From contig NZ_JACHGU010000003.1 in assembly GCF_014202435.1 (NCBI RefSeq), forward strand, positions 62,001 to 126,000: a DNA stretch of 64,000 nt. Direction: 5' to 3'. The notes below the pieces were generated by a model. The model was not told the DNA's origin, ran no database searches, and worked only from the letters and a program-made list of their open reading frames with translations. The translations under genes were made by a program, and so were the position numbers. How positions within the stretch are numbered: position 1 is the first letter of the stretch; each line of letters starts with the position of its first letter. Positions 10,422 to 64,000 of this stretch are shown here, in pieces. The DNA comes from Pseudoxanthomonas broegbernensis (GTDB taxonomy: Bacteria; Pseudomonadota; Gammaproteobacteria; Xanthomonadales; Xanthomonadaceae).

Positions 10422-11599
10422 CAGACCACCGCGTAGTTCAGCAGCGGCTTGACCGTCCCCCATTCCTTGCAACTGGGACACTGCCAATGGTGGGTGCGTG
10501 CACCGAAACCGCAACGCGTGCAGCGATAACTGGGGTTGCGCACCAGCAACTGGTCGGTGATGTGCTTGAGGTCGTGCAGGGTGGCGGTGCTGTCGGCGCC
10601 CACCGCCAGGGTCAGGTCGATCAGCGCCGCCTCGCCACGGACCGAAGGACGGTCCTTGAGCTGGCGCCCGAGGTAGTCGCGGGCCGCCTGGGTCCCCTCC
10701 TGCTGCTCGATCAGCCGGGTCAGGGCCAGCACCGGGGCGATGCCGCGGTAGTGCTCGCTCATCTCGGCCAGGAACGCGCGCGCGCCGGCGATGTCGCCCA
10801 CTTGCGCATGGCAGGCCAGCAGGCTGGGCAGCACTTCCGGCAGGTAGTCCGGATCGTGCCTTGCGGCGCGCTCGAACGCGCGGATCGCCGCCTCGGGATG
10901 GCCGGCGTCGGACTCGATCCGTCCTTCCAGGATGCCGGCGCGCACGCAGGTCGCATCGGCCTGGTAGGCACGGCCGATGGCCGCGCGCGCGTCGTCGAGG
11001 TTGCCGTTGCCGCGGTGGCGTTCGGCCAGCTCGCACTCGAACTGCGCCACCAGCTTGCCCATCGGCTCGCCCGTGGCCTCCTCGTAGCGGGTGGCGTTGT
11101 CGATCGCCCGCTCCCAGTCGCGCTCGGCCTGGTAGATGCCGATCAGGTGCTTGAGCGCCTGCGGCGCGCGCTGGTCGATCCTGGCCAGGTCGGTGAACAC
11201 GGTCTCGGCGCGGTCCAGCAGCCCGGACTTCATGTAGTCCTCGCCCAGCGCCAGCAGCGCCTGCACCCGCTGCGCGTCGCTGAGGTCGTGGCGCTGGACC
11301 AGCCCCTGGTGCAGACGGATGGCGCGGTCGACCTCGCCGCGGCGACGGAACAGGTGGCCCAGTGCGACCTGGGTCTCGAAGGTTTCCTTGTCCAGTTCGG
11401 CGATGTGCAGGAACAGCTCGATGGCCTTGTCCGGCTGCTCGTTGAGCAGGTAGTTCAGGCCGCGGAAATAGGTGGTGGACAGGCGGCTGACCTGGGTGTC
11501 GCCGTGGCGCTGGCCGCCGCGGCGCCCCACCACCCAGCCGGTCAGCGCGGCCAGCGGCAGGAACAGGAAGAACCAGAACCACTCGTTGAGGAATTCCAT
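10421..11599 (-). CDS. lapB: LPS assembly regulator LapB (YciM)
   Basis: A 392-residue inner-membrane-anchored TPR protein. It has an N-terminal helix (FLNEWFWFFLFLPLAALTGW), several TPRs (residues about 70-340) and a C-terminal rubredoxin-like metal knuckle with CTRCGFGA and CPSCKEWG. In E. coli LapB tunes LpxC degradation through FtsH/YejM and so controls lipopolysaccharide amount. It lies 4 bases after lapA, and the next gene starts at its stop. Having an LPS regulator inside an O-antigen initiation operon is consistent with its role. Confidence 0.96.
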   Translation of the reverse strand: MEFLNEWFWFFLFLPLAALTGWVVGRRGGQRHGDTQVSRLSTTYFRGLNYLLNEQPDKAIELFLHIAELDKETFETQVALGHLFRRRGEVDRAIRLHQGLVQRHDLSDAQRVQALLALGEDYMKSGLLDRAETVFTDLARIDQRAPQALKHLIGIYQAERDWERAIDNATRYEEATGEPMGKLVAQFECELAERHRGNGNLDDARAAIGRAYQADATCVRAGILEGRIESDAGHPEAAIRAFERAARHDPDYLPEVLPSLLACHAQVGDIAGARAFLAEMSEHYRGIAPVLALTRLIEQQEGTQAARDYLGRQLKDRPSVRGEAALIDLTLAVGADSTATLHDLKHITDQLLVRNPSYRCTRCGFGARTHHWQCPSCKEWGTVKPLLNYAVV

Positions 11600-11603
11600 C
11601 GGC

Positions 11604-11909
11604 TCAGTCGCCTTCCGGGTAGGGAACCCGGGGGCGGGCGTCTTCGGCCTCCGGTGCGATGGGAGCGGCCGGCGCCGGCGGGCGGCAGGCGCGGCGCAGG
11701 CGGGCGTGCAGAGGGATGACGGTGGTCGCCACCACCAGCCCGCCGCCCAGCAGCACGCCGGCCAGCAAGGCCACGACGATGGCGATCCCCGAGGTGGTCA
11801 CCAGCTCCGCAATGCCGAAATCGAGCAGGATGCGCTGCGAATTGAGCGAACCCACGACCAGACCCGCGACCAGGAAGGCCAGCAGGACCAGCAAACGAAG
11901 GATATTCAT
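11604..11909 (-). CDS. lapA: LPS assembly protein LapA (DUF1049)
   Basis: The 101-residue protein has two membrane segments (residues about 3-22 and 40-66). The LapA family motif NSQRILLDFG lies between them, and the tail is Pro/Ala-rich and cytosolic. It is coupled to lapB with 4 bases between the genes. LapA is a conserved partner of LapB; its biochemical role is not settled. Confidence 0.92.
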   Translation of the reverse strand: MNILRLLVLLAFLVAGLVVGSLNSQRILLDFGIAELVTTSGIAIVVALLAGVLLGGGLVVATTVIPLHARLRRACRPPAPAAPIAPEAEDARPRVPYPEGD

Positions 11910-11983
11910 GACCCGCTTCTCCCGGGACGGTCGCGCACAAGCTTAGCCGAGCGCGGGCGGAGGAGGGATACGACCCGGGCGCG

Positions 11984-12286
11984 TTACGGCTCGGCCGGGG
12001 CGGGAACGACCTCGCTGACCTTCTCGCGCAGTTCCTTGCCCGGCTTGAAATGGGGCACGTGCTTGCCCGGCAGTGCCACCGAGTCGCCGGTCTTGGGGTT
12101 GCGGCCCATGCGCGGCGGGCGGTAGTGCAGCGAAAAGCTGCCGAAACCGCGGATCTCGATGCGTTCGCCCGAGGCCAGCGAACCGGCCATCATCTCCAGC
12201 AGCGACTTGACGGCCAGGTCCACGTCCTCGGCCTTCAGGTGCGACTGGCGGCGGGCCAGAATCTCGATCAGTTCGGACTTGGTCAT
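11984..12286 (-). CDS. ihfB: Integration host factor subunit beta
   Basis: The 100-residue HU/IHF-fold DNA-bending protein starts [10 protein letters not shown]. It contains the IHF-beta core [16 protein letters not shown] and the DNA-intercalating beta-arm with GRNPKTGD and a Pro nearby. It forms a heterodimer with IhfA and bends DNA at sigma-54 promoters, recombination sites and origins. It follows rpsA, as in many proteobacteria, separated by a strong 14-bp hairpin. The C-terminal extension EVVPAPAEP is lineage-typical. Confidence 0.95.
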
Positions 12287-52491: not shown

Positions 52492-52567
<76 letters not shown>

Positions 52568-52731: not shown

Positions 52732-53946
52732 ATGCTCACCGATCTGACCATCCGCAAGGCCAAGGCGAACGGAAAGACTCAGCGCCTGTTCGATGCAGGC
52801 GGCTTGTATCTGGAAATCTCCCCCAACGGGGGCAAGTGGTGGCGTCTCAAGTTCAGACACGGCGGCAAGGAAAAGCGCTTATCCCTAGGAACTTATCCCG
52901 AAGTCAGTCTCGTGGAGGCTCGCGACAAGAGAGCCGAGCACAAGAAGCTGCTCTCGGCAGGCGTTGATCCTGGGCAGCACCGCAAGGCGGCAACGGCGGC
53001 GGGCGCGGAGCGCGCTGCTAACAGCTTCGAAGTCGTGGCACGCGAATGGTTCGCGAAACAACAGGTTGGCTGGGCACCCAGCCATGCCGACAAGGTCATC
53101 GCCCGGCTGGAAAACGACATCCTCCCATGGCTCGGCAGCCGCCCTGTCGCCGAGATCACCGCTCCCGAGCTCCTGAAGCACTTGGATCGCATCGAAAAGC
53201 GCGGCGCGGTCGAAACCGCCCACCGCGCGCTACAAAACTGCGGGCAGATCTTCCGCTACGCCATTCAGACCGGCCGCGCCGAGCGTGACCCGACCTATGA
53301 CCTGAAGGGCGCCCTCACCCCTCACCGTACCCAGCAGTATGCGCACGTGGTCGAGCCGGCGGAGATTGCCGTACAGCTGCGGAAGATCCACGCCTGCAAG
53401 GGCACCTTTCCGGTGCTCTGCGCACTGCGTCTAGTGCCCCTGCTGTTTGCCCGTACAGGCGAACTGCGGCACATGCGCTGGACAGACCTCGACCTTGAGG
53501 CCGGGCAATGGTGCTACACGGTCAGCAAGACCCGACGGCAGCACATCGCTTCGCTTTCATCACAGGCCGTGGCAATCCTGACCGAGTTGAAGCCATTGAC
53601 CGGGCATCACCAGTACGTGTTCCCGGGCAAAGGCAGGGATCGGAAGGAACCGATTTCCAGCAATGCCATCCTCCAGGCGCTGCGCCGGGCGGGGATCTCC
53701 AAAGAAGAGCAGACCATCCATGGCTACCGGCACACCGCCAGCGTGCGACTGAACGAAATGAGCACATGGAACACGGATGCGATCGAGGCCGCGCTCACGC
53801 ACAAGATGCCCGGCGTCCGTGGCGTGTATGCCGGGCGCGCTCAGTACCTAGATGAGCGGCGACGAATGATGCAAGCGTGGGCGGACTATTTGGACGCCCT
53901 CCGCACCGGAACCAATGTCATCCCGATCAAGCGCGAAGTGGCCTAG
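52732..53946 (+). CDS. P4-type tyrosine site-specific integrase
   Basis: The 404-residue protein has the DUF4102 arm-binding N-terminus ([46 protein letters not shown]), an SAM-like core-binding domain (about 100-185), and a catalytic domain. Catalytic residues seen are Arg in [13 protein letters not shown]-x-x-R in HGYRHTA, the later His in ALTHKM, and the Tyr in [16 protein letters not shown]. It would integrate and excise the element at the adjacent tRNA. The ATG is embedded in the GGGGGCAACT repeat cluster. Confidence 0.93.
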
Positions 53947-58967: not shown

Positions 58968-59567
58968 AGCGTTTACCGCTCGGTCACCACCAACGCCGGC
59001 GAACTCAGGGGCGACGCGTCCCGGATCTGCGTCGGCGGTGACAGCGCTGGCGGCAACCTGGCGATCTCCGTGAGTACCCGTCGGCTGCGGGCCAAGGAGA
59101 AACCTCCGACCTGCCAGCTCCTCTACTATCCCGCCGTCGACAATCGTGCAGTTCCGTCGATGCGTACTGATTACGCGTCTTCGCGAATGTTCGGCGACGG
59201 ATTCGGGCTCGACTACGGATTCACCGAGTACGTCCTCGCACGCGTGTTCCCTGGCCTGGACCTGGAGCACAGTGAGATCTCACCATTCTTTTCCAAGAGC
59301 ATTGCGCAACTGCCGCCCACCCTGATAGCCGCTTCGGGTTTCGACCCACTGCGCGACTCGAATCGGGCCTATGCGAAGCGCTTACGGGAATCCGGGGTTC
59401 GGACCTGGTATCGCGAGTACCCCACACTGACCCATGGGTTCTTCCAGCTCACGGCAATCACCGAGGCGGCTGACGCGGCTGCGACGGAAACAGCTCTTCT
59501 GCTAGGTGAGCTGATCCGCGGCGCCGAATCGCCATCTCCGGAGACGACGGTTCCTAGGACGCGCTGA
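58968..59567 (+). pseudogene. 5'-truncated alpha/beta hydrolase (HSL/esterase type)
   Basis: In frame from 58968 to 59567 the reading is a continuous esterase-lipase domain. It has the nucleophile elbow GGDSAGGNLAIS, Asp in GFDPLRDSN and His in PTLTHGFFQ. The N-terminal third with the HGGG oxyanion-hole motif is missing. An in-frame TAG stands immediately upstream (58965-58967). The first start codon is a GTG at 59070, after the nucleophile. The truncation point coincides with the edge of the mobile element, suggesting loss by integration or an associated deletion. Confidence 0.75.
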
Positions 59568-59620: not shown

Positions 59621-59953
59621 CTATTGCTCTGGAGCGGCTGCGGCGTCCTCTTCCGGCACGTAGATCATGCGCCCATCCGGCAGTTTGTACGCGACCCCGG
59701 CGCGCACGCCGCCGCCCTCTCCGATCTCTCCGGTCGATTCGTAGCGGGTCAGGTCCTGGCCGTCCTTCACGGTGATGCGCATATCCGCCTCTCCAGGATT
59801 CTCGACCACCACCACCTTGTCCTGCGAGAACGGGTTGAGCGGGTTCCGCACCACCACCACCATCAGGATCCCGATCACCACCAGGAACAGGTCGACCAGG
59901 TTGACCACGGACAGGATCGGATCATCGATTTCGTCATGCTCGAGGAAGCGCAT
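59621..59953 (-). CDS. DUF2149 membrane protein (HmuV-like accessory)
   Basis: The 110-residue protein has one N-terminal membrane helix (LVDLFLVVIGILMVVVV) and a periplasmic beta-rich domain ending with YKLPDGRMIYVPEE. The layout resembles ExbD/TolR-type partners of proton channels. DUF2149 proteins are regularly found with CobN-like and ExbB-like genes, in methanogens and in Bacteroidota hmu loci. The ATG at 59953 shares a base with the stop of the ExbB-like gene (TGATG), so it is coupled. Confidence 0.88.
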   Translation of the reverse strand: MRFLEHDEIDDPILSVVNLVDLFLVVIGILMVVVVRNPLNPFSQDKVVVVENPGEADMRITVKDGQDLTRYESTGEIGEGGGVRAGVAYKLPDGRMIYVPEEDAAAAPEQ

Positions 59954-60429
59954 CAGCTACCCTCCCCGCCGCGCTCTATGGCGCGCATCTCCTCCAGCAG
60001 CCAGCGCCGGCGCACGGTCAGCACCAGGAAGGCGATGCTGGCTGCGACCAGCGCCAGGATCACCGACGAGAACGCCACCACTAGGTTTTCGCCCACTGCC
60101 TGCGCGTCGCTGCGGGTCAGCGCCAGCAAGGCAGGCCCCATCGGGATCATGGTCGCGACCAAGCCCAGCATCGGCGCCGTGCGGGACACGATGCGCAGGG
60201 CTTCCAAGCGCCTGAGGATCCACAGTTCGAGATCGTCGCTGGTCCCGCCGCGGTCGGCCTGGTGCGCGGCCAGACGCGAACGGTAGCGCCCGCGCAGGCG
60301 CTGCCAAGCCTCCAGCGCGAACGCCCCCAGCGCGTAGAAGGCATAGGCCAGCGAGGCCAGGATCAGCACCAGTACAGGCGCGAGGAAGAGGCGGGAGAGT
60401 TCGTAGAGGCTGGATTCGAGGCTGTTCAT
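59953..60429 (-). CDS. MotA/TolQ/ExbB-family proton-channel protein
   Basis: The 158-residue protein has three membrane segments (about 14-38, 85-108 and 118-142), with the family core SRTAPMLGLVATMIPMGPALLAL and the pore-helix region VVAFSSVILALVAASIAFLVL. It would conduct protons with the DUF2149 protein as its ExbD-like partner and energise the CobN-like protein or an outer-membrane receptor. Its ATG overlaps the cobN-like stop (ATGA). The pairing is inferred from gene order. Confidence 0.9.
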   Translation of the reverse strand: MNSLESSLYELSRLFLAPVLVLILASLAYAFYALGAFALEAWQRLRGRYRSRLAAHQADRGGTSDDLELWILRRLEALRIVSRTAPMLGLVATMIPMGPALLALTRSDAQAVGENLVVAFSSVILALVAASIAFLVLTVRRRWLLEEMRAIERGGEGS

Positions 60430-63400
60430 CGGAGCGGTTGCGGGTGGGGAAGTCGGGCGTTGCCACGTGCCTGGGCCAGCACTCCGGCGAGCAGGCACAG
60501 CGCCAGTGCCAGCAGGCCTGCCAGAGGGTGCCAGGCCGACCTCGCAGGCGGTGGATCGAGCGGCGTTTCCTGCATGATCCGGCCGCGCACCGGGGTGGCC
60601 GGGTCGGCGGCGGCGGCGGGCGTGTCGTCGGGGGCAGCGGCCGGAGACGCATCGGCCGGGGGCTGCGCGGCGCGCGGTACCTGCGCGCGGACCTGCGCGG
60701 TGCCATAGCCGCGTGCGGCGGACTGCACCGCCTCGGCGCTCGCCCGGGTCAGCATCTGCAGGCGCTGTTCCAGCTCCGCCACAGTCGCTGCATCCGCCTG
60801 CCAGTAGCCACGCGCGATCGCCTCGCGCATGCGCACGATCAGCTGCGCCTGCGCGGTCGGATTGTGCTTCCCGAACCAGGCGTCCACGCCCAGCCGGCGG
60901 ACGTCGCGCACGTAGGTGTCATGCAGGGCCTGCCATTGCTCCGCGCGTACCGAACCCGGATCGGTCACCTGCCAGCCGAACAGGTTGTCCACCGTGTCCA
61001 GCACCGCCAGGGTGCCGGCGTAGCCCTCCTTCTGCATCTCGCCGATCCAGTGCGGGTTGAGTTGGCGGCTGCGCAGTTCGTCCGCGATGAAGCGGGCGGC
61101 GGTGGTGGTCTTGGCTGTTCCGCCGCGCAGGTCGGAGACGTACAGGTCCGGGCTGGCACCATCGAGATGGCGCACCGCCAGCGACAGGCCACCCAGGTAC
61201 TCGAATGGATGGTCGGTCGACAGCAGACCGTGGGTGTTGGAGGAACGCGCCAGCACCGCCGCCTGCACCCCGCGCAGTTGCTCGGCGAACAGGTTGCCCT
61301 GCCCCGGCGTGTCCAGCTTCAGGCCCCAGTCGCGGGCGCCGTAGGCGTACTGCAGCCGCGAGAGGAACTGGTCAGCCAGCGCGGCGTCGCTCTTGTCCGT
61401 GCGTTCGCTCAGGACCGCATCGGGCAGGCCGCTGCCGTACTCGCCAGGCGCGTTGCTGAAGATCCGCAGCGCCGCCAGCTGGCGCGCGCGGCCGGGGTCC
61501 AGGCCGCGGGCGGCGAGCGCCCGGGCCACGGCCCCGGTATTGCGTGCGATCGCGTGCGGCGCCTGCTGCGCCGCGAGGCGGTCGATCGCGTCGGCCAGCA
61601 GGCGCATGAAACCGTCGAACTGGTCGCGGTAGACGCTGGTGACCTGCACCACCGCGTCGATCCGGGGCCGCGCCAGCTCGACCTCGGGCACGATCTCCAG
61701 CGCCGTCACCCGGCCGCCGGGGTCCCATACCGGGCGCAGGCCGAGGGCGTGCAGCACCTGGCTTTCGAGCACGCCCAGGTGGCGGATCGCCTCGGACGAC
61801 CACAGGCTGAAGGCGAGCTTGTCCGGCGCGCGGCCACCATGCGCGTCCCGGTAGGTCGCGAGCAGCTGCTCCAGCGCCTGGCCGCCGGCCTCGTAGGCGG
61901 CCCGGGTCGGGATCCGGTCCGGCTCGAACGGATAGAGGTTGCGGCCGCTGCGCAGGTCCGGGTTGCGCACCGGGTCGCCGCCGGCGCCGGGAGGCACGAA
62001 GCCGCCGGCCAGGCCGCGCAGCAGCGATTCGGCTTCCTGCGGATCGGCCAGGGCCCGGTCCAGCTCCAGCGCGCGCTGCAACTGCGCGCGCAGCGCCGGA
62101 TCGGACACCGTGTCCAGCGGAATACCCTCGCGCAGGTGGCTTCGCAGCAGGCGGTACGGCTCGCCCTGCGCCAGCACCTGGAAGTCCTCGGCGAACGCTT
62201 CGGCTGGATCGACGCCCAGCGCGCGCAGGTAGGGTTCGCCCAGCTGCTGCAGGACCATGCCCAGGCGGTGATCGGGCATGGCCGCTTCGCCGAAGGTGTG
62301 CAGGCCCAGCGGCATCGCGCCGCGCGCCAGCTCGTGCAGCTGCTCGTGCAGGACGCCGAAGAACCTCGGGAAGTCGGCATCGATCGCCGCGCGGCTCCAG
62401 CCGATGTCGCCGGCGATCCCGGCCGCGAGCGCAGCGTCGCGCAGCGCATCCCGGGTGCGCTCACGCACGTCCCCTTCGTCCAGTTGCTGGTACTCGTGCA
62501 CCAGCGCGTGGAGGTCGCGCAGTTCGTCGTACAGCCCGGCCGGGGCGAACGCCGGGGTCTGGTGGCTGATCGTCACCGCGCGGCCGCGCCGCTTGGCCTG
62601 TACCGCTTCGCCGACGTTGTCCTGGATGTAGGGGTAGAACACCGGCAGGTCGCCGACGGCGAGGAACGGGTAATCGTTGACCCACAGCCCGCGGTCCTTG
62701 CCCGGGGTCCATTCCTGGGTGCCATGGGTGCCGAAGTGGATCAGGGCGTCGGCGGCGAAGCCTTCGCGCACGAATTGGTAGGCGGCCAGGTAGTAGTGGC
62801 TCGGCAGCGAGGCGGTGTCGTGGGTGGCCTGGCCGACCTGCCCAGCGCGGGGCGGCTGCGGCATCACCAGCAGCTGTCCCAGCTGCAGGCGCGGGAACAC
62901 GAAAGCCGGCTCGCCGTCGATCCGGCGCACCGCCGGGTGGGTTTCCGGCTCGCCCCAGCGCTGCAGCAGCGCCTGGCGCTGCGCCGGCGGCAGGGTGTCG
63001 AGCCACCGGCGGTAGCGCGCGACCGGGAAGGCGGCCGCCAGGCCGCGCGCGAGCAGCGCATCCAGCGACTGCGGACGGTAGTAGCCGCCGAGCATCGCCT
63101 GCGCCTTTTCGATCAGATCGGCTTCGGCCATCGGCTGCACCTGGTAGCCCGCCGCCCGCAGGTCCTGGCCCAGCCGGACCAGGCTGCGCGGCACGTTGAG
63201 ATGCGAGGCGGACAGGTTCTTCTCGCCTTCCGGCGCGTTCCAGAACATGAGCGCGACGTGCTTGTCGGCCGCTGGCTTGGCCCTCAGCGCCACCAGCCGG
63301 GCGAGCTTGGCGGCCAGCGCCTCGACCTGTTCGGGGATGGCCACCGACTCGCCGTGCTCCACCGCGCCTAGCACCATTGGATCGCTCGCGCCCCAGCCTT

Positions 63401-64000
63401 CCGGCACCGCCAGGAAGGTGGCCACCAGCGACGGGCTGACGCCACTGGCGGCACCGCGCCAGTGCGCCGGATCGCCCTGGCGGTAATTCAGTGCCTGCAG
63501 CACCGGCACGTCCAACGCGAGGAATTCCTCAGCGCGCGCCTTGTCGTTCTGCAGGTGGGTGAGGTTGACGATCACCGCGACCGGAAGACCGCGCAGCGCC
63601 TGGGTCAGCCCCTGCGGATCGTCGTCGTCGAACCACAGGCCGAACACCTGTACCCCGTGCGCGGCACCGCGCTGGATCAGCGCATCCACCACCGCGGTCT
63701 GCATGGAAGCCACCGACCCCGGCGACACGAGCACGGCCACGCGGGCGCCGTCGTCGGTGGCCGGGCCGCCACGCCATGCCAGGTATTCCGCGGCGCTGGC
63801 GAACACGGTCGGCGCGGCTGGATCGTAGTAGCCGGTACGCGGCAACGGCCGCGGAGGCGGCACCGCGGCCAGGTCGCCGCCGCGGCGCCAGCGCGCGATG
63901 GCGTCGACCAGATGGCGGAAGTTCGCCTCGCCGCCGGCGGCGTAATAGCCCGCAAGCCGCATCGCCACGTCCTCGGGCAGCCCACCGGCGGCCGGGCGAC
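60426..64000 (-). CDS. Membrane-anchored CobN-like metal chelatase (HmuS-like; N-terminus beyond window)
   Basis: About 1190 residues are visible, and the reading frame continues past the window edge (the frame upstream of a GTG at 63968 is open and matches CobN). It is the large chelatase subunit of the CobN/BchH superfamily. Landmarks include ALIHFGTHGTQEWTPGK with its two His, YPFLAVGDLPVFYPYIQD, FEYLGGLSLAVRHLDG and YVSDLRGGTAKTTTAARFIADE. The C-terminus carries an Ala/Pro-rich linker and one membrane helix (LAGLLALALCLLAGVLA), absent from cobalamin-pathway CobN. No CobS/CobT partners are near, but ExbB-like and DUF2149 genes are coupled to it. This is the arrangement of hmuS-type haem genes rather than cobalt insertion. 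Confidence 0.9.
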   Translation of the reverse strand, partial: RPAAGGLPEDVAMRLAGYYAAGGEANFRHLVDAIARWRRGGDLAAVPPPRPLPRTGYYDPAAPTVFASAAEYLAWRGGPATDDGARVAVLVSPGSVASMQTAVVDALIQRGAAHGVQVFGLWFDDDDPQGLTQALRGLPVAVIVNLTHLQNDKARAEEFLALDVPVLQALNYRQGDPAHWRGAASGVSPSLVATFLAVPEGWGASDPMVLGAVEHGESVAIPEQVEALAAKLARLVALRAKPAADKHVALMFWNAPEGEKNLSASHLNVPRSLVRLGQDLRAAGYQVQPMAEADLIEKAQAMLGGYYRPQSLDALLARGLAAAFPVARYRRWLDTLPPAQRQALLQRWGEPETHPAVRRIDGEPAFVFPRLQLGQLLVMPQPPRAGQVGQATHDTASLPSHYYLAAYQFVREGFAADALIHFGTHGTQEWTPGKDRGLWVNDYPFLAVGDLPVFYPYIQDNVGEAVQAKRRGRAVTISHQTPAFAPAGLYDELRDLHALVHEYQQLDEGDVRERTRDALRDAALAAGIAGDIGWSRAAIDADFPRFFGVLHEQLHELARGAMPLGLHTFGEAAMPDHRLGMVLQQLGEPYLRALGVDPAEAFAEDFQVLAQGEPYRLLRSHLREGIPLDTVSDPALRAQLQRALELDRALADPQEAESLLRGLAGGFVPPGAGGDPVRNPDLRSGRNLYPFEPDRIPTRAAYEAGGQALEQLLATYRDAHGGRAPDKLAFSLWSSEAIRHLGVLESQVLHALGLRPVWDPGGRVTALEIVPEVELARPRIDAVVQVTSVYRDQFDGFMRLLADAIDRLAAQQAPHAIARNTGAVARALAARGLDPGRARQLAALRIFSNAPGEYGSGLPDAVLSERTDKSDAALADQFLSRLQYAYGARDWGLKLDTPGQGNLFAEQLRGVQAAVLARSSNTHGLLSTDHPFEYLGGLSLAVRHLDGASPDLYVSDLRGGTAKTTTAARFIADELRSRQLNPHWIGEMQKEGYAGTLAVLDTVDNLFGWQVTDPGSVRAEQWQALHDTYVRDVRRLGVDAWFGKHNPTAQAQLIVRMREAIARGYWQADAATVAELEQRLQMLTRASAEAVQSAARGYGTAQVRAQVPRAAQPPADASPAAAPDDTPAAAADPATPVRGRIMQETPLDPPPARSAWHPLAGLLALALCLLAGVLAQARGNARLPHPQPLR

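Follow-up and report, generated by a model that had tools for sequence, protein, structure and literature searches.

We analysed a window of 64,000 nucleotides of Pseudoxanthomonas broegbernensis DNA that ends within a four-gene operon encoding, in this order, a TonB-dependent receptor (TBDR), a CobN-like class-I chelatase subunit, an ExbB-like protein and a DUF2149 protein. We give about even chances to the reading that this is a Zur-controlled operon whose periplasmic chelatase, of the same kind as HmuS, removes a metal, likely zinc, and has an ion-gradient motor of its own. The CirA-like receptor would bring a metal-bearing ligand into the periplasm. The enzyme, tethered at the inner membrane, would take the metal, most likely zinc, off this ligand, which might be a zinc chelate and perhaps a porphyrin. 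The ExbB-like/DUF2149 pair would be the enzyme's motor, replacing the cytoplasmic AAA+ pair CobS/CobT or ChlI/ChlD. More tentatively, as a possibility in which we have less confidence, the periplasmic zinc de-chelatase running on an ion gradient would be one of a family of machines whose receptor, promoter and active-site pair are co-tuned to zinc, haem iron or cobalt/corrin.

To read past the window end we used a fetched stretch, L002 (contig C3, 121000-140900), in which a position equals the window position minus 58999; here L-numbers label fetched locus stretches and G-numbers label genomes. The features of the operon are:

59621..59953, minus strand (L002 954-622): DUF2149 protein, 110 amino acids (PF09919)
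59953..60429, minus strand, ATG at 60429 (L002 1430-954): MotA/TolQ/ExbB-family protein, 158 amino acids (PF01618)
60426..64000, minus strand, stop at 60426, continuing to window-equivalent 64349 (L002 5350-1427): CobN/HmuS-like class-I chelatase subunit, with the C-terminal 1190 of its 1307 amino acids in the window (PF02514, NF004644, HmuS match)
61191..61226, minus strand: codons for LLSTDHPFEYLG, residues 1042-1053 of the chelatase, the stretch aligned with HmuS His1209/Glu1212 (alignment)
L002 7272-5350, just beyond the window, same strand as the other three: TonB-dependent receptor, 640 amino acids (gene reading in L002)

All three junctions, read directly, overlap: TGATG between the receptor and CobN-like genes, ATGA between the CobN-like and ExbB-like genes, and TGATG between the ExbB-like and DUF2149 genes. 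The last two overlaps had been reported in a preliminary description of this stretch, whose three-gene cluster on the minus strand proved real and its overlaps exact; it had also advised looking beyond 64000 for a TBDR, and one was found there. The CobN-like protein matched PF02514 at 950 bits and the NCBIfam model NF004644 at 1685 bits (cut-off 1248). The ExbB-like protein belongs to the MotA/TolQ/ExbB family by its PF01618 score of 31.2 bits (cut-off 22.9), and the DUF2149 protein matched PF09919 at 92.3 bits.

The full CobN-like protein begins, beyond the window, with MRRCWHALGHPAPVWLLLLLGWCWAASAAEPP, a signal-peptide-like stretch. Its C-terminus, earlier described as a linker plus a membrane helix, bears this out with a hydropathy peak of 2.66, above our own cut-off of 1.7 for calling helices over 17 residues. 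In 24 CobN-like proteins, the window protein included, the N-terminal helix passed in 22 (the exceptions being the window protein and L035) and the C-terminal helix in 18, the window's among them; L031, L033, L034, L041 and L050 did not pass at the C-terminus, and the L037 protein is truncated there by the contig end. Proteins that failed a hydropathy cut-off resemble the passing ones by eye. The protein is thus most likely periplasmic, with its C-terminal helix holding it at the inner membrane, a predicted location that the sequence supports fairly well. ATPases of the CobS/CobT type could presumably not act there.

The closest solved relative of the protein is HmuS (9d26) at 413 bits, against 340 for CobN and 335 for ChlH. 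HmuS was shown in 2025 to remove iron from haem, and its active-site residues are His538, in HFGTHG, and His1209 with Glu1212, in LSLDHxxEFMGG (PMC12583661; published work is cited in this text from titles, the starts of abstracts, passages and open-licence full texts). The window protein carries HFGTHG (as IHFGTHGTQ) and LSTDHPFEYLGG. The equivalents of His538, His1209 and Glu1212 are all kept, and the second motif, LLSTDHPFEYLGG, differs from LSLDHxxEFMGG. HmuS His254, which like Met79 is a head/neck haem ligand, stands opposite a His in the pairwise alignment and meets a gap in the multiple alignment. Across 104 relatives, the window protein included, the positions of His1209 and Glu1212 hold His and Glu in 59, Asp and Gln in 35, Asp and Asp in 5, and another residue or a gap in 5. 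The His paired with HmuS His254 occurs in 53 of the 59 His/Glu proteins and in 0 of the 45 others by pairwise alignment, the multiple alignment placing HmuS His254 off that column.

The CobN/HmuS/ChlH tree that had been proposed earlier was built with BchH as outgroup under LG+G4, by a quick search with Shimodaira-Hasegawa-like approximate likelihood ratio test (SH-aLRT) support and no bootstrap, and many of its rows were compositionally uneven. The four CobNs taken as canonical formed a clade of their own (SH-aLRT 100), and the window protein lay outside it, in keeping with the HmuS kinship that the preliminary description had assumed. The 53 other rows, including three HmuS proteins, were united at a weak 82. 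The window protein fell in a 22-row clade (99) and, inside it, in a 19-row clade (98) that contains the Zur-type members selected for this analysis, which are alpha-, beta- and gammaproteobacterial; the neighbour of the window protein is Stenotrophomonas acidaminiphila. Since the branching mixes proteobacterial classes, it suggests that the Zur-type chelatase may have been transferred horizontally between them. A divergent member, L044 (G388), stands on a long branch, has a DHPMSFLGG site and shows, at -102, a Zur-like palindrome that has 3 mismatches.

About 27 bp upstream of the TBDR ATG lies a Zur-box-like palindrome by sequence match, GAAATGATATGATATAACATTA. The search used a Zur consensus that we take to be GTTATANTATAAC, and a published P. 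aeruginosa Zur site, as given in the passages available, resembles it (GCGTTATAGTATATCAT). With at most 1 mismatch, GWTATNNTATAAC occurs in two places only in the whole 3.47-Mb genome: the operon promoter and C2:264882. The latter site precedes a receptor that best matches the ZnuD family (420 bits, short of the cut-off of 950). A distance of 4.5 kb separates it from a gene of the Fur family that encodes His residues close to its start and that we read as Zur-like. In this genome, the argument for Zur control rests on where both sites lie, not on their number.

This context recurs among the relatives. Boxes with at most 2 mismatches were sought between 500 bp upstream and 120 bp downstream of the receptor start. 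Of 104 loci, 19 offered no receptor start that could be tested and were excluded, leaving 85; receptor starts were taken as the first possible start codons, unverified. A box was present in 31 of the 85 testable loci, compared with 0.65% of random background windows of the same loci, and at 3 mismatches in 46, compared with about 3.6% of the background. The box goes with the active site: 31 of the 54 testable His/Glu loci had one, against 0 of the 31 others (Fisher p 1e-8, a value that overstates independence because the sequences are related), and at 3 mismatches the counts were 44/54 and 2/31. A gene for the zinc chaperone ZigA is found near L046, and its sequence cluster spans 7 loci. We consider it fairly well supported from these sequence matches that the operon is under Zur and apparently induced by zinc starvation. 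The preliminary interpretation is partly supported: it held up as to the HmuS kinship and the lack of CobT, and it did not include the zinc-starvation context given by the TBDR and the Zur-box-like site at the operon start. Outside the 104 loci, L036 (G106), which has neither CobN nor a receptor, shows at 11431-12260 a Zur-like palindrome followed by a partial ExbB gene and a DUF2149 gene.

The ExbB-like and DUF2149 genes accompany the chelatase gene from whichever side the search is made. DUF2149 itself is patchy: within the order it occurs in 8 of 200 genomes, and within the phylum in 17 of 398. In the 25 loci found by DUF2149 alone (24 fetched regions plus the window), an ExbB gene adjoins in 25 and a CobN gene in 24, the exception being L036. 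A CobN pattern scan confirmed at least 577 relatives, of which the best 80 were kept; almost all of these are alpha-, beta- or gammaproteobacterial, and one comes from a cyanobacterial metagenome-assembled genome. Among these best 80, 77 have ExbB and 76 have DUF2149, and the four loci that are incomplete have a contig end at or just after CobN; DUF2149 ends 0.5-1.3 kb past CobN in 67 of the 76, and lies farther off or before CobN in 9. Because the genes co-occur both in loci found by DUF2149 alone and in loci found by CobN alone, the combination is not due to chance, and the operon type is not specific to the P. broegbernensis genome. Within the genus, a CobN-like match was obtained in 2 of 17 genomes, the window's included, the other copy being 44% identical.

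The conserved ExbB/DUF2149 neighbour pair is, we infer, the best candidate for a motor of the chelatase. As in ExbB-ExbD, TolQ-TolR and MotA-MotB, the ExbB-like partner belongs to PF01618, and all 18 of its aligned homologues keep T93 and P96. For the DUF2149 protein a single membrane helix is predicted, which bears an invariant Asp and is followed by a short domain; this D21 is kept in 14/14 and 32/32 aligned homologues, and an Asp is present in 88/88 pattern-matched DUF2149 frames. The sequence data are consistent with an ExbB-like channel that would drive the chelatase, with DUF2149 acting by analogy like ExbD.

The pair might instead energise the TBDR as a private substitute for TonB-ExbBD, leaving the CobN-like protein as a separate handler of metal or ligand. 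We think this unlikely, although Pseudomonas papers, in the passages available, interpret PA1924 as receptor support, the HmuS paper depicts HmuU/HmuV as powering import (PMC12583661), and a TBDR match precedes CobN, by a loose rule, in 76 of the 80 best loci. The pair stays with CobN in L049, L050 and L051, where the fetched stretch holds no receptor match. In Trichlorobacter lovleyi, one cluster on pGLOV01 (L137) combines the ExbB-like/DUF2149/CobN genes with a DUF2162 gene and with exbB-exbD-tonB as a set of its own. The P. broegbernensis genome has four ordinary ExbD matches elsewhere. Moreover, the DUF2149 and CobN families both match in Methanosarcina acetivorans, an archaeon, which has no outer membrane; in a haloarchaeal plasmid that was examined, CobN stands beside cobalamin genes. 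The stretches without a receptor match, the double set of Trichlorobacter and the Methanosarcina match argue that the pair serves the chelatase rather than the receptor.

If the pair does drive the chelatase, the enzyme could still work as an inserter, loading zinc or cobalt into a periplasmic ligand under zinc starvation. Its relatives CobN and ChlH are metal inserters, cobalt goes up in a znuA mutant according to the published passages, and one trio lies at the cobalt insertion step of a cobalamin cluster (L049, in the order cobB-CobN-ExbB-DUF2149-cobO, with the CobB and CobO families above cut-off). This trio belongs to a group, L049, L050, L052 and L053, in which Asp/Asp CobNs occur with cobalamin riboswitches; L037, L047 and L048 have B12 riboswitches too, whereas 12 further Asp/Gln loci and 6 Zur-type loci, all of those searched, gave no riboswitch. 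The CobNs of the trios near B12 riboswitches carry a predicted export signal and membrane tether, and they are possibly cobalt chelatases acting outside the cytoplasm. For the P. broegbernensis operon we hold insertion to be improbable: it would presumably spend scarce metal under Zur derepression, and the closest characterised relative, HmuS, which shares the site pair and the partner genes, is a de-chelatase. The HmuS precedent and the zinc-starvation control together favour removal.

An ordinary HmuS-type haem de-chelatase that supplies iron would also agree with HmuS being the closest solved relative and with the active-site pair common to both. We find it more doubtful still, in view of the Zur-like promoter context (Fur boxes were not searched for), the CirA-like receptor and the lack of HmuY and HmuT among the four operon genes. 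Furthermore, proteobacterial operons with haem receptors fall into another clade and carry another site. Of 10 receptors tested from the Asp/Gln group, 7 scored above both curated haem-receptor cut-offs, as did that of L107, and these operons are possible proteobacterial counterparts of hmu; by contrast, nine of the receptors of ten Zur-type loci were nearest to CirA-type families, none at cut-off, and that of L058 matched none at 1e-80. A rule that His at the HmuS 1209 position marks porphyrin and Asp corrin had its basis in BchH, which has His, and in the canonical CobNs, which have three Asp and one Ala (n=4); we dropped it because operons with haem/haemoglobin receptors have Asp/Gln. That some relatives stand beside haem receptors or in cobalamin clusters suggests that one chassis is used for several metals. 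The chelatase type is paired with receptors above haem/haemoglobin cut-offs in L043, L104, L107, L112, L114, L120, L123 and L132; L112 and L125 each have a confirmed ChaN-type gene (PF04187), and Bacteroidota plasmids have the hmu layout.

A CobN of the cobalamin pathway, the name given by NCBIfam ('cobaltochelatase subunit CobN', the NF004644 match above), was rejected as highly improbable on genome content, tree and topology: the genome, listed as 99.99% complete, has no match to CobT (TIGR01651) or CobQ (TIGR00313), CobS not having been searched, which agrees with the earlier remark that no cobalamin motor partner is near; L002 has no B12 riboswitch; and the protein, with its predicted export and membrane tether, lies outside the canonical CobN clade.

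Several observations weigh against a zinc de-chelatase with its own motor. By hydropathy alone, the N-terminal helix of the window protein peaks at 1.61, slightly below the cut-off. The receptor of the operon has the catecholate receptor Cir as its nearest match (388 bits), with haem and B12 receptors far off, and so gives no pointer to a tetrapyrrole; and since the haem-receptor operons carry Asp/Gln, a His/Glu site is no clean marker of porphyrin chemistry. Regarding the promoter, the reversed control pattern gave 3 hits too, and the genome-wide count of the Zur pattern was not above this control. Ten of the 54 testable His/Glu loci have no box even at 3 mismatches; in the clade member L138, a 13.5-kb stretch of an Azospirillum brasilense plasmid with no annotated receptor, the best box has 4 mismatches. 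As for the motor, tests for homology between DUF2149 and ExbD did not show any, though with a low-confidence model and few ExbD rows a remote relation may exist. The DUF2149 model was poor (predicted local distance difference test score 66), Foldseek returned nothing at E<=0.001, and hhalign against ExbD gave a probability of 12% with three ExbD rows only, the helices aligning Asp on Asp. Neither BLASTP nor a profile search of solved chains with DUF2149 had ExbD among its matches. The proposal that DUF2149 is an ExbD homologue, unsupported by any of these tests, is kept as a working analogy. In Methanosarcina, DUF2149 and CobN are known as family matches, and adjacency of the pair to CobN was not seen. 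Finally, the literature searched holds no biochemistry for this clade.

The operon type itself is already on record. In P. aeruginosa, PA1922-PA1925 has been described as Zur-regulated (PMC4542158, PMC8456098, PMC11761036, PMC9431628, PMC13083405) and, in the passages available, as 44.7- to 147-fold more strongly expressed when znuA is mutated. By these published descriptions it is alike in its CirA-type TBDR, CobN-like protein, channel protein named 'ExbD', DUF2149 protein and Zur control; the sequences compared here were those of other Pseudomonas relatives (L072, L085, L087 and L096). Its reading in those passages is import of free zinc or cobalt, with no chelatase mechanism proposed, and the P. 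broegbernensis operon differs in lying on an integrated island. The hmuYRSTUV system of Bacteroidota likewise has a membrane-tethered CobN homologue with His538 and His1209/Glu1212, a TBDR, and ExbB-like and DUF2149 partners. As described in the source passages, it serves haem and iron, has HmuY and a gene at the HmuT position, and its HmuS has 1469 residues with a Met-rich insertion, whereas the P. broegbernensis operon has a Zur-like promoter and a CirA-like receptor and is without HmuY or HmuT. The CobN of CobNST and ChlH/BchH share the PF02514 family and an HFGTHG-type motif with the window protein; they are described, in the sources as available, as soluble, cytoplasmic and ATP-driven with CobS/CobT or ChlI/ChlD, and the canonical CobNs form a separate clade. 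In comparison with ExbD, DUF2149 is without reliable homology.

In the titles, abstract starts, passages and open-licence full texts consulted, we found no metal de-chelatase role for PA1923-type proteins and no ExbB/DUF2149 motor for a chelatase. Within that literature, the predicted location, the HmuS-type site, the clade-wide Zur-like boxes and the parallel haem-receptor and B12 versions are new. A widespread group related to HmuS and with its active-site pair is placed by this evidence in the zinc-starvation response, which points to a route for obtaining zinc for which the literature searched contained no described enzyme. It raises the question of a class-I chelatase working outside the cytoplasm without ATP, for which the ExbB/DUF2149 pair is a concrete motor candidate. 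The proposed reading also supplies a mechanism to test for Pseudomonas PA1922-PA1925.

An integrated island of about 43 kb, extending from a tRNA-Ala(CGC) gene to C3 ~157822, carries the operon as cargo. Its left part in the window contains:

52492..52567, plus strand: tRNA-Ala(CGC), left island end (island comparison)
52735..53946, plus strand: tyrosine integrase of the island (PF13356, PF22022, PF00589)

The same-genus genome G599 shows the empty site, where the sequence after the tRNA continues with that found at the island's far end, with a CCCTGGC(T)CCACCA repeat that is imperfect. Immediately downstream of the operon, at window 59070-59567 on the plus strand, lies an alpha/beta hydrolase fragment (PF07859) that matches only from profile position 91 of 210.

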